This document shows positions 30,001 to 60,000 of a stretch of 64,000 nt of DNA, in pieces. The stretch's first letter is position 1, and each line of letters starts with the position of its first letter. The stretch is from positions 248,001 through 312,000 of the forward strand of contig NC_087083.1 in the NCBI RefSeq assembly GCF_026151205.1, in the 5' to 3' direction. This DNA is from Bolinopsis microptera. Its lineage: Eukaryota > Ctenophora > Tentaculata > Lobata > Bolinopsidae. Under the pieces are notes generated by a model. It was not told where the DNA came from. It saw only the letters and a program-made list of their open reading frames with translations, and did no database searches. The translations under genes were made by a program, and so were the position numbers.

Positions 30001-33000
30001 TGACCCAAGTTTTCGATCAGAGGAAGGGATTAAATATCAAAAATAAACAACCAACATCATCATTCGCAAGTTCAATATGAATCGGTTAAAAGTTCATTTC
30101 CATTCCAAGTTGGTTGTGAAAAGTACTAAGATTAGAAATTCTGGCTGATGCTTGTCATAGATTTATAACTAAACTGATCTGTAGGTAACCAACTAAGAGT
30201 GCCGCCTAAGGATGATGACTAGTACATCATGATAACAATACAGTAGATCCCTCTCAGAAAGCTGTGTTTTATGTTATTGTAACTTTGTTTGAAAAGCATT
30301 TATGCACGAGAAGATTTCAGTAGATATAATTTCGTAATTATGTATAGGTCTGGATTGTGGACGGTAAGGGAGGTGAACCAAATGTTTTTCTGATAAGTAT
30401 CAAAGCAAATAAGGTTCACATCCCCACAAATGTCCAGGTCTATTATTTTAAAAGTTATTTAAACTCAAAGCTATAAGTTCACAAAATATTATCTGACCTG
30501 GGAAAGTGGTTGACTTTTTGTAGTTCAGTGAGTCCTCGTAGAGTGTAGGGTTTAACGTGACACCCACACCACATTAGGTTGAAGTCGTTACTGTTCTGGT
30601 GAATCTGGAGGGGATTTAGCAATTGGAAATTAGCAATTAGCAATTAGCAATTAGCAATTAGCAATTAGCAATTAATAAGGACTGATATTATGTCCTTAAT
30701 AAGGACTGATATGTCCTAAATATAAAGTATTTGTAGTATTCCACGATACCCCATCTACTTTAACTCACCAGAGGATATTACAAAAGTGTTAAAGTAATAA
30801 ATCACCTAGCTACGATAAAACAATTATCAGCAGCCAATGATATCTGAAGTTTTGAAGCACTGATTCACACATTCCCGTAATTCACGTGACGTCATCACAC
30901 TGTCACGTGACATCACGTGACATCACCAGTCACCACACTCTACAGACAGTTATCAGCTGCCAATAACATATGAAGTTTTAAGCAACAACTCACACACACG
31001 CACAACCCCCTGATAATTGAGGTGATCATTTGAAATGTGAAGCAGAGAGAGAGAGAGAGAGAGAGAGAGAGAGAGAGAGAGAGTGAGAGAGAGAGAGAGA
31101 GAGAGAGAGAGAGAGATAAGTTGGAGCGGAATAGTACGTTCAATGCAACTATAATACTGCATTACTGTAGCTGATCTTGTATTAAGCTAATTCTGGTCAA
31201 TCGCTAGTATGGGTGGAGTATGATGAACTCGATTATATGTACAGTCTCTTTGTACAACTACAAAGGGAATATACCAGAGGTCCACAAAGAGTGACGAGAA
31301 TGAGCAGCACGTTACGACAGGTTTGGGAGTTCTCAATTGAGAGTTTGCTCACACGCCCCTCCTCACCTGAGAGAGAGAGAGAGAGAGAGAGAGAGAGAGA
31401 GAGAGAGAGAGAGAGAGAGAGAGAGAGAGAGAGAGAGAGAGAGAGAGAGAGAGAGAGAGAGAGAGAGAGAGAGAGAGAGAGAGAGAGAGAGAGAGAGAGA
31501 GAGAGAGAGAGAGAGAGTGAGAGAGAGAGAGAGAGAGAGAGAGAGAGAGAGAGAGAGAGAGAGAGAGAGAGAGAGAGAGAGAGAGAGAGAGAGAGAGAGA
31601 GAGAGAGAGAGAGAGAGAGAGAGAGAGAGAGAGAGAGAGAGAGAGAGAGAGAGAGAGAGAGAGAGAGAGAGAGAGTTATTATATGTGTGGTATTATACAG
31701 AGGTGTTCAATAGAATGACCAATAGAATGACTACATGAGTTGGAGGAGTTTGTAGTTGCTGATTGAGTTTATGAGTAATTGTTGTGTTAATTGTATCTGT
31801 GAAGGACAACGTAAAATTACCACAGATTTCTTCTAGTTTAGTTGGAGAGAGAGAGAGAGAGAGAAAGAGAGAGAGAGAAAAAGAGAGTTCTAGTGGTTCC
31901 AGAATGAGGTGCAGTGATTGGATAAGTACAGCTCTAACTAAAAATACCAGTGACCAGGGTTATGTGTGGGCTTACTTTGCACTCGAAGGTACTAGAACTA
32001 AAATGTGTGTGTGTTTTACAGAAGTGCACTAAACCAAATATTCGGGTAACAATAAATTACTAATTATATAATCAGACTACAGGAATAATAAAACTGTTTT
32101 TACTGAATTCTGGTTTAAATAACTAATTAACAACTAATTAACAACTAATTAATAAGTAATCAACAACTAATTAACAACTAATTAACAACTAATTAACAAC
32201 TAATTAACAACTAATTAACAACTAATTAACAACTAATTAACAACTAATTAACAACTAATTAACATTTAATTAACAACCAATTAACAACTAATTAACAACT
32301 AATTAATAAGTAATTAACAACTAATTAATAAGTAATTAACAACTAACTAACAACATTCCTGAACTCTCTAACTAACCTCTCTGAAACCATGCCCCTCCAA
32401 TAGAGTCCTGAGAAGTCTACACTCTGTCTTTACAAACTTATACGTCAGCCCGACCCCACTTGAAACTGCGCAATTAGTAATATGAGTAAAAGTTATAGAA
32501 ACAAAATTACCAACATCATACTAATAGAGTGATACCTACCAAGAACTGTTAACTCACCCATCTTGTTGCAGGAGCACTCAGTGTTCTTATAAAGACAAAA
32601 CAACAGTGATACCTACCAAGAACTGCTAACTCCTCCATCTTGTTGCAGGAGCACTCAGTGTTCTTATAAAGACAAAACAACAGTGATACCTACCAAGAAC
32701 TGTTAACTCACCCATCTTGTTGCAGGAGCACTCAGTGTTCTTATAAAGACAAAACAACAGTGATACCTACCAAGAACTGCTAACTCCTCCATCTTGTTGC
32801 AGGAGCACTCAGTGTTCTTATAAAGACAAAACAACAGTGATACCTACCAAGAACTGTTAACTCCTCCATCTTGTTGCAGGAGCACTCAGTGTTCTTATAA
32901 AGACAAAACAACAGGTATACCTACCAAGAACTGTTAACTCCTCCATCTTGTTGCAGGAGCACTCAGTGTTCCTATAAAGACAAAACAACAGGTATACCTA

Positions 33001-57000: not shown

Positions 57001-60000
57001 TTACCTCCTCCATCTTGTTGCAGGAGCACTCAGTGTTCTTATAAAGACAAAACAACAGTGATACCTACCAAGAACTGTTACCTCCTCCATCTTGTTGCAG
57101 GAGCACTCAGTGTTCTTATAAAGACAAAACATCAGGTATACCTACCAAGAACTGTTAACTCCTCCATCTTGTTGCAGGAGCACTCAGTGTTCTTATAAAG
57201 ACAAAACAACAGTGATACCTACCAAGAACTGTTACCTCCTCCATCTTGTTGCAGGAGCACTCAGTGTTCTTATAAAGACAAAACAACAGTGATACCTACC
57301 AAGAACTGTTACCTCCTCCATCTTGTTGCAGGAGCACTCAGTGTTCTTATAAAGACAAAACAACAGTGATACCTACCAAGAACTGTTACCTCCTCCATCT
57401 TGTTGCAGGAGCACTCAGTGTTCTTATAAAGACAAAACAACAGTGATACCTACCAAGAACTGTTACCTCCTCCATCTTGTTGCAGGAGCACTCAGTGTTC
57501 TTATAAAGACAAAACAACAGGTATACCTACCAAGAACTGTTACCTCCTCCATCTTGTTGCAGGAGCACTCAGTGTTCTTATAAAGACAAACATCAGGTAT
57601 ACCTACCAAGAACTGTTACCTCCTCCATCTTGTTGCAGGAGCACTCAGTGTTCTTATAAAGACAAAACAACAGTGATACCTACCAAGAACTGTTACCTCC
57701 TCCATCTTGTTGCAGGAGCACTCAGTGTTCTTATAAAGACAAAACAACAGTGATACCTACCAAGAACTGTTACCTCCTCCATCTTGTTGCAGGAGCACTC
57801 AGTGTTCTTATAAAGACAAAACAACAGTGATACCTACCAAGAACTGTTACCTCCTCCATCTTGTTGCAGGAGCACTCAGTGTTCTTATAAAGACAAAACA
57901 ACAGTGATACCTACCAAGAACTGTTACCTCCTCCATCTTGTTGCAGGAGCACTCAGTGTTCTTATAAAGACAAAACAACAGTGATACCTACCAAGAACTG
58001 TTACCTCCTCCATCTTGTTGCAGGAGCACTCAGTGTTCTTATAAAGACAAAACAACAGGTATACCTACCAAGAACTGTTAACTCCTCCATCTTGTTGCAG
58101 GAGCACTCAGTGTTCTTATAAAGACAAAACAACAGTGATACCTACCAAGAACTGTTACCTCCTCCATCTTCTTACAGGAGCACTCAGTGTTCTTATAAAG
58201 ACAAAACATCAGGTATACCTACCAAGAACTGTTAACTCACCCATCTTGTTGCAGGAGCACTCAGTGTTCTTATAAAGACAAAACAACAGTGATACCTACC
58301 AAGAACTGCTACCTCCTCCATCTTGTTGCAGGAGCACTCAGTGTTCTTATAAAGACTAACATCAGGTATACCTACCAAGAACTGTTACCTCCTCCATCTT
58401 GTTGCAGGAGCACTCAGTGTTCTTATAAAGACAAAACAACAGTGATACCTACCAAGAACTGTTACCTCCTCCATCTTGTTGCAGGAGCACTCAGTGTTCT
58501 TATAAAGACAAAACAACAGTGATACCTACCAAGAACTGTTACCTCCTCCATCTTGTTGCAGGAGCACTCAGTGTTCTTATAAAGACAAAACAACAGTGAT
58601 ACCTACCAAGAACTGTTACCTCCTCCATCTTGTTGCAGGAGCACTCAGTGTTCTTATAAAGACAAAACAACAGTGATACCTACCAAGAACTGTTACCTCC
58701 TCCATCTTGTTGCAGGAGCACTCAGTGTTCTTATAAAGACAAAACATCAGGTATACCTACCAAGAACTGTTAACTCCTCCATCTTGTTGCAGGAGCACTC
58801 AGTGTTCTTATAAAGACAAAACAACAGTGATACCTACCAAGAACTGTTACCTCCTCCATCTTGTTGCAGGAGCACTCAGTGTTCTTATAAAGACAAAACA
58901 TCAGGTATACCTACCAAGAACTGTTACCTCCTCCATCTTGTTGCAGGAGCACTCAGTGTTCTTATAAAGACAAAACAACAGTGATACCTACCAAGAACTG
59001 TTACCTCCTCCATCTTGTTGCAGGAGCACTCAGTGTTCTTATAAAGACAAAACAACAGTGATACCTACCAAGAACTGTTACCTCCTCCATCTTGTTGCAG
59101 GAGCACTCAGTGTTCTTATAAAGACAAAACAACAGTGATACCTACCAAGAACTGTTACCTCCTCCATCTTGTTGCAGGAGCACTCAGTGTTCTTATAAAG
59201 ACAAAACAACAGTGATACCTACCAAGAACTGTTACCTCCTCCATCTTGTTGCAGGAGCACTCAGTGTTCTTATAAAGACAAAACAACAGTGATACCTACC
59301 AAGAACTGTTAACTCCTCCATCTTGTTGCAGGAGCACTCAGTGTTCTTATAAAGACAAAACAACAGTGATACCTACCAAGAACTGTTACCTCCTCCATCT
59401 TGTTGCAGGAGCACTCAGTGTTCTTATAAAGACAAAACAACAGTGATACCTACCAAGAACTGTTACCTCCTCCATCTTGTTGCAGGAGCACTCAGTGTTC
59501 TTATAAAGACAAAACAACAGTGATACCTACCAAGAACTGTTACCTCCTCCATCTTGTTGCAGGAGCACTCAGTGTTCTTATAAAGACAAAACAACAGTGA
59601 TACCTACCAAGAACTGTTACCTCCTCCATCTTGTTGCAGGAGCACTCAGTGTTCTTATAAAGACAAAACAACAGTGATACCTACCAAGAACTGCTAACTC
59701 ACCCATCTTGTTGCAGGAGCACTCAGTGTTCTTATAAAGACAAAACAACAGTGATACCTACCAAGAACTGTTAACTCCTCCATCTTGTTGCAGGAGCACT
59801 CAGTGTTCTTATAAAGACAAAACAACAGTGATACCTACCAAGAACTGTTAACTCCTCCATCTTGTTGCAGGAGCACTCAGTGTTCTTATAAAGACAAAAC
59901 AACAGTGATACCTACCAAGAACTGTTAACTCACCCATCTTGTTGCAGGAGCACTCAGTGTTCTTATAAAGACAAACATCAGGTCTGAAGTGTAGGACTGG

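Follow-up and report, generated by a model that had tools for sequence, protein, structure and literature searches.

Tandem duplication across an exon–intron boundary is a known event. In the potato RdRp gene, a duplication over an intron–exon boundary produced two copies and, with them, a new intron (PMC4974935), and the Rogers/Hellsten model likewise invokes duplication of an exonic segment bearing AGGT (PMC3443670). Among genes with repeat-laden introns, the Y-linked genes of Drosophila contain satellite-filled giant introns (PMC11207136, PMC8248703), and an intronic variable number tandem repeat (VNTR) of ABCA7 affects splicing (PMC5954066). Here, we describe intron 2 of the TTLL5 gene of the ctenophore Bolinopsis microptera, which consists almost entirely of 357 tandem units, each resembling the junction at which the intron begins. 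The gene lies on the minus strand of a 64,000-nt window (the whole stretch of DNA analysed; assembly GCF_026151205.1, contig NC_087083.1, positions 248,001 to 312,000 of the forward strand).

The TTLL5 locus shares with potato RdRp a junction-crossing tandem duplication in a working gene, whereby the exonic sequence of one copy turns intronic. In contrast to the two copies, 3' boundary and new intron of the potato gene, TTLL5 carries 357 copies of a 5' boundary, and an existing intron was enlarged. Splice signals are supplied by tandem duplication, as in the Rogers/Hellsten model, but the TTLL5 segment is not purely exonic, and by the gene model, which holds a single intron between exons 2 and 3, no new intron was made. 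With the Drosophila Y introns, the locus has in common a very long intronic tandem array that needs removal by splicing, and with the ABCA7 VNTR a tandem repeat within an intron of a protein-coding gene. To our knowledge, the Drosophila Y repeats do not derive from the exon–intron junction of their host genes, and we know of no exon end or donor in the ABCA7 unit. Searches of the open-access literature, judged mostly from listings, turned up no array of satellite size with a splice junction as its seed. Within that literature, junction-crossing duplication is known, and the new element would be its amplification to satellite scale with enlargement of an existing intron.

Spliced alignment of the window with P0001, a protein of Mnemiopsis leidyi, placed intron 2 at positions 59933-32466, a length of 27,468 bp. 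The original prediction, made from the letters of the window, had described an intron of about 27.5 kb with some 357 junction copies, and both figures held: Tandem Repeats Finder (TRF) returned a period of 77, 356.9 copies and 96% matches over 27.4 kb, and cutting at a fixed anchor gave 357 units, a copy number that is assembly-based. The 356 spacings between units measured 77 (309), 76 (40), 78 (6) or 75 (1) bp. In the length of the array and the near-identity of its units, this is satellite DNA, and each unit combines exonic and intronic sequence of one junction, as expected of a tandem duplication across a splice site. The array starts 42 nt inside exon 2 and stops 62 bp short of the acceptor (63 bp had been predicted for this non-repeat part). 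Its components are as follows.

59934..60046, minus strand: TTLL5 exon 2; the array probably derives from its last 50 nt together with the 26 intronic nt that follow (spliced alignment, unit comparison).
32528..59975, minus strand: junction array, 77 bp x 357, covering the last 42 exonic nt of exon 2 and nearly all of intron 2.
32466..32593, minus strand: last unit, with an exon copy, a donor at 32557 that is still an intact GTGAGT, and a full intron of 92 nt leading to the true acceptor.
32466..32527, minus strand: non-repeat part of intron 2, 62 bp, with acceptor TTGCGCAG (TRF, spliced alignment).
32377..32465, minus strand: TTLL5 exon 3 (spliced alignment; one match in the genome).

As had been proposed, the array opens with the genuine exon 2 end and its donor, in phase with exon 3, the spliced exon 2–exon 3 peptide being identical in P0001. 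The terminal 36 nt of exon 2 recur exactly in 339 of the 357 units and the terminal 42 nt in 305, while all 50 terminal nt are found in 5, the real exon included. Four units contain the joint TATACCTGATGTTTGTC, which is exact exon sequence and gives a unit of 76 bp; the commonest joint (219 units) differs by a few bases and gives 77 bp. The most exon-like unit, and likely the original one, therefore comprises 50 exonic and 26 intronic nt, not the 49 and about 28 first suggested. Because the peptide at the end of exon 2 is kept in the Mnemiopsis protein and is recognisable (..CLYKSKDCSCTKI..) in a second relative, P0002, exon 2 would be the source and the array its copy. At the far end of the array, the complete 92-nt version of the intron (32557-32466) persists, which supports a short ancestral intron 2 of roughly 92 nt, close to the predicted 0.1 kb.

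The gene itself is not an obvious pseudogene, since 828 stop-free codons run across the 25 exons of the spliced alignment and exon 3 has a single genome match. The aligner accepts only GT/GC..AG introns and penalises stops, so that junction types and the stop-free frame are in part a product of its rules. The ends of exons 19-22 are weak, the final piece lacks a donor, and P0001 extends at its C-terminal side past the window. The exon-joined window peptide matches the Pfam TTL family (E 1.8e-89). Assignment to TTLL5 follows from this domain and from the names of the closest relatives, which among the best 120 proteins listed read TTLL5 or TTLL5-like where they are not hypothetical, predicted, unnamed, uncharacterized, cut off or missing; the solved relatives scoring best are TTLL6 and TTLL7. 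P0001 was the top match among the 8000 candidates with the most shared words, to which scoring was confined, and is 98% identical to the window protein over the 372-amino-acid TTL-domain part. P0002 is an unnamed protein, 89% identical to the window protein and probably from another ctenophore.

Growth by amplification of the 5' junction, as originally proposed, is supported by these data, and we consider it highly probable that intron 2 grew by duplication of its junction followed by amplification, tolerated since the product is spliced out. Starting from a TTLL5 intron 2 of roughly 92 nt, a tandem duplication over the 5' splice junction would have yielded the 76-bp unit, which unequal exchange or replication slippage would then have multiplied to 357. 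A duplication over the junction would fall into the intron; provided that splicing runs from the donor beside the intact exon to the old acceptor, the message would stay the same. The gene could thus have tolerated the array because a junction-crossing duplication becomes intronic by itself, and growth would be neutral if the outermost splice site is used. During the spread, most copies would have lost the GT of the original donor. The sequence and its coordinates, the phase, the agreement of unit and exon, the conservation of the coding copy and the lack of exact copies elsewhere are shown directly; we infer the order of these events, the use of the first donor and the neutrality of growth.

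A different unit cutting distinguished 56 unit types, the commonest accounting for 136 of 356 units. Identity between neighbouring units was 0.17-0.24 at lags 1-40, compared with 0.17 by chance, slightly raised at short lags and with no peak that would mark a higher-order repeat, and block duplications within the array did not exceed those in 50 shuffled unit orders. In the 309 units that are 77 bp long, variation of at least 3% is confined to seven columns, none of which belongs to the first 36 (exonic) ones, and rarer changes occur in 5 of the 36 exonic columns and 3 of the 41 others. The array looks young and recently homogenised, with donor variants that spread early. An assembly artefact, in which an assembler or gap closer inflated a few true units, would fit the low unit diversity, and gap closing was used in the published Bolinopsis assembly (PMC10232365), if that assembly is the same one. 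It is nonetheless an improbable explanation: the number of distinct unit types, the lack of excess block duplications and a gradient of donor types along the array (below) all argue against repeated pasting of one stretch, and the same gene contains another array, of 178 copies. Unit 115 is a rotated combination and no 76/76 copy of the gene junction, as the 76-mer occurs once, in the gene.

The donors of the units depart in part from the expectation that the spliceosome faces hundreds of near-identical junctions. Decoys are present, as a donor-like TTG|GTAGGT occurs in 357 of 357 units; the original donor GGGTGAGT, however, is kept in only 46 of 357, the real donor included. Five further units read GGGTGAGG and one more has GGTGAG, and a GT stands at the original donor place in about 51 units. 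The remainder comprises 236 units in which a GAG|GTAA-type site lies five bases farther on, downstream (the five GGGTGAGG units included), 68 that read GGAGGAGTTA and offer only a weak GT, and 7 of other kinds. By their sequence, then, the putative decoy donors are mostly not copies of the true site. The GGGTGAGT units cluster towards the far end, where the last 60 units include 23 of them, as against 4 in the first 89. Loss of the original donor may reflect chance or selection against decoys; the asymmetry is suggestive of the latter, which we do not claim. A donor weight matrix was built from the gene's own 24 modelled donors and scored the true donor at 5.4 when left out of training (7.6 when included), the unit GTAGGT at 7.1 and GAG|GTAACA at 4.1; the matrix being small and trained partly on doubtful donors, these scores show only that decoys exist.

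Use of the first donor is likely, because the protein is conserved: the modelled join of 59934 to 32465 restores the conserved frame, and reading through past this donor meets a stop at 59850-59848, in the second unit. When 17 GT sites in the first 134 nt were joined to exons 3-4, the frame was kept by the true donor and five others. The units might instead be functional and regulate TTLL5, whether as alternative donors, as micro-exons or as sites of recursive splicing. Besides the ubiquitous TTG|GTAGGT, such a role would be in keeping with the T-rich stretch ending TTTATAAG in common units and with the GTAGGT of the first unit, at 59915, whose use would add six in-frame codons. We regard it as unlikely, somewhat more so than an artefact, since a unit length of 76-77 breaks the frame, the second unit brings a stop, and the column variation given above, rare or common, reveals no constraint on the exonic half. 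RNA folding of three consensus units was likewise ordinary, with no excess stability (z -1.46, -0.02, -0.83).

An exact pattern search for the two main unit types across 264.65 Mb (264,652,675 bases, 232 contigs) gave 41 and 215 occurrences genome-wide and the same 41 and 215 in the window alone, so no exact copy of either type lies outside the array, though diverged copies could remain; in these exact patterns, the array does not behave as a dispersed, library-type satellite. Arrays can spread into flanking DNA, but invasion of intron 2 by an unrelated satellite, with later conversion of the exon end to match it, is barely credible given that the exon-end peptide is identical in Mnemiopsis and recognisable in P0002 and that neither exact pattern recurs elsewhere in the genome.

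Three further arrays of the gene, in introns 1, 12 and 13, include or touch a splice site and had gone unnoticed in the original prediction. They are listed here with the exons concerned.

61174..61217, minus strand: TTLL5 exon 1, donor TG|GTATGT (spliced alignment of P0001, sequence).
61047..61178, minus strand: intron 1 array, 32 bp x about 4, which takes in the donor of exon 1 together with 5 exonic nt (TCATG) (TRF, sequence).
18904..18995, minus strand: TTLL5 exon 13 (spliced alignment).
18955..19146, minus strand: intron 12/exon 13 array, 62 bp x 3.1, each unit with 21 intronic nt including the acceptor and 41 nt of exon 13.
9407..18110, minus strand: intron 13 array, 49 bp x 178, which stops 6 nt short of exon 14 and contains no exonic bases.
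9340..9401, minus strand: TTLL5 exon 14 (spliced alignment).

The five exonic nt in the intron 1 array could partly reflect chance. The intron 12 array amounts to about three copies of the intron's own 3' junction and, in boundary and copy number, is a closer parallel to potato RdRp. Its copies, each with an acceptor and 41 nt of exon 13, could pass for exon starts in annotation.

To place these arrays against expectation, an automatic list was compiled for the gene part of the window (period of 20 or more, 2.3 copies or more), which yielded 11 arrays. A splice site lies inside 3 of the 11, compared with 0.86 expected from random seeds (P for three or more, 0.046). Requiring at least 2.5 copies gave 3 of 7 (P 0.021), and a period of 30 or more with two copies or more gave 3 of 9 (P 0.041); all of these tests are post hoc. 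Two of the other eight arrays end within 8 nt of a modelled junction (the intron 13 array, and 2036-2102 next to exon 19, an exon that is weakly modelled); the remaining six neither contain a splice site nor end that close to one. A hand-picked list of eight arrays (P 0.026) was dropped as too favourable, three qualifying arrays being absent from it. Tandem repeats make up 28% of the 274 kb around the window, this gene's two big arrays included, and arrays near exons are therefore to be expected.

The TTLL5 case might extend to the lineage, with splice junctions as favoured satellite seeds and ctenophore introns that ratchet up by self-amplifying junctions. Junction-crossing duplications would end up inside the intron and thereby escape selection, and the mRNA would be preserved only because the site beside the intact exon is invariably the one chosen. 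We hold this extension to be doubtful. Several points weigh against it or against parts of the account given for intron 2. By local signals, the last junction (GTGAGT plus the 92-nt intron) looks equal to the first as a splice unit and must be overcome if the first donor is to win. Splicing of intron 2 was read from the genomic sequence rather than from RNA of B. microptera, a species for which Iso-Seq is reported (PMC10232365), and the direction from exon to array was read from protein comparison. The excess of splice-site arrays over random expectation is borderline. Finally, in six myosin loci holding 42 of the 73 exon hits of a Myosin_head search (one locus cut by its end), neither TRF nor self-BLAST showed an array that clearly takes in exon sequence at a junction. 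Several short repeats there adjoin or overlap exon hits by a few bases (e.g. L030 7283-7380, L033 3289-3366), overlaps that are not assignable to exons because the ends of profile hits differ from exon ends, and a 1.9-kb array in L035 overlaps a myosin hit by up to 16 nt, upstream of a likely acceptor. Overall, the several junction-touching arrays in one gene raise the interest of the finding, whereas the borderline enrichment and the negative myosin sample lower it; junction-seeded growth is not established as a general process, the evidence here being TTLL5 and that sample.

The locus nonetheless suggests a simple route by which a short intron could become a giant one from its own junction alone while the protein sequence is kept. 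It also offers a natural splicing test, in which one true donor is followed by 356 units, 45 of them repeating GGGTGAGT, and the final one of these 45 is set before a short intron that is still whole. Should such arrays turn out to be widespread among ctenophores, the length of introns in these animals would be partly a by-product of duplications concealed by splicing.

Further observations concern the surroundings. A dynein search returned 72 hits, and gene finding by codon bias yielded too little across the 274 kb that surround the window. A large array of 37 bp x 420 (15.5 kb) lies near the window, at C12:377697-393234 (L025-L027). In the myosin locus L030, 4012-4203 and 4255-4485 are tandem exons, 83% identical over 101 nt and covering nearly the same profile positions; they are probably mutually exclusive.

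Within TTLL5, a 938-amino-acid open frame on the minus strand of intron 18 (4035-6848) has no counterpart in the aligned Mnemiopsis TTLL5 protein and is perhaps a nested intronic gene; such genes are reported as frequent in the ctenophore Hormiphora californensis (PMC8527503). Intron 4 contains a 332-amino-acid minus-strand open frame (25717-26712) that, judged by appearance only, resembles part of a reverse-transcriptase element, and intron 3 contains a (GA)n run of about 153 units (31369-31675). Upstream of the gene, a minus-strand 78-bp repeat in 12.7 copies (61793-62779) encodes a 26-amino-acid protein repeat (AEAWKVAEAHLLSLNEPAIAKAPSAT) and sits in a 396-amino-acid open frame (61700-62887).

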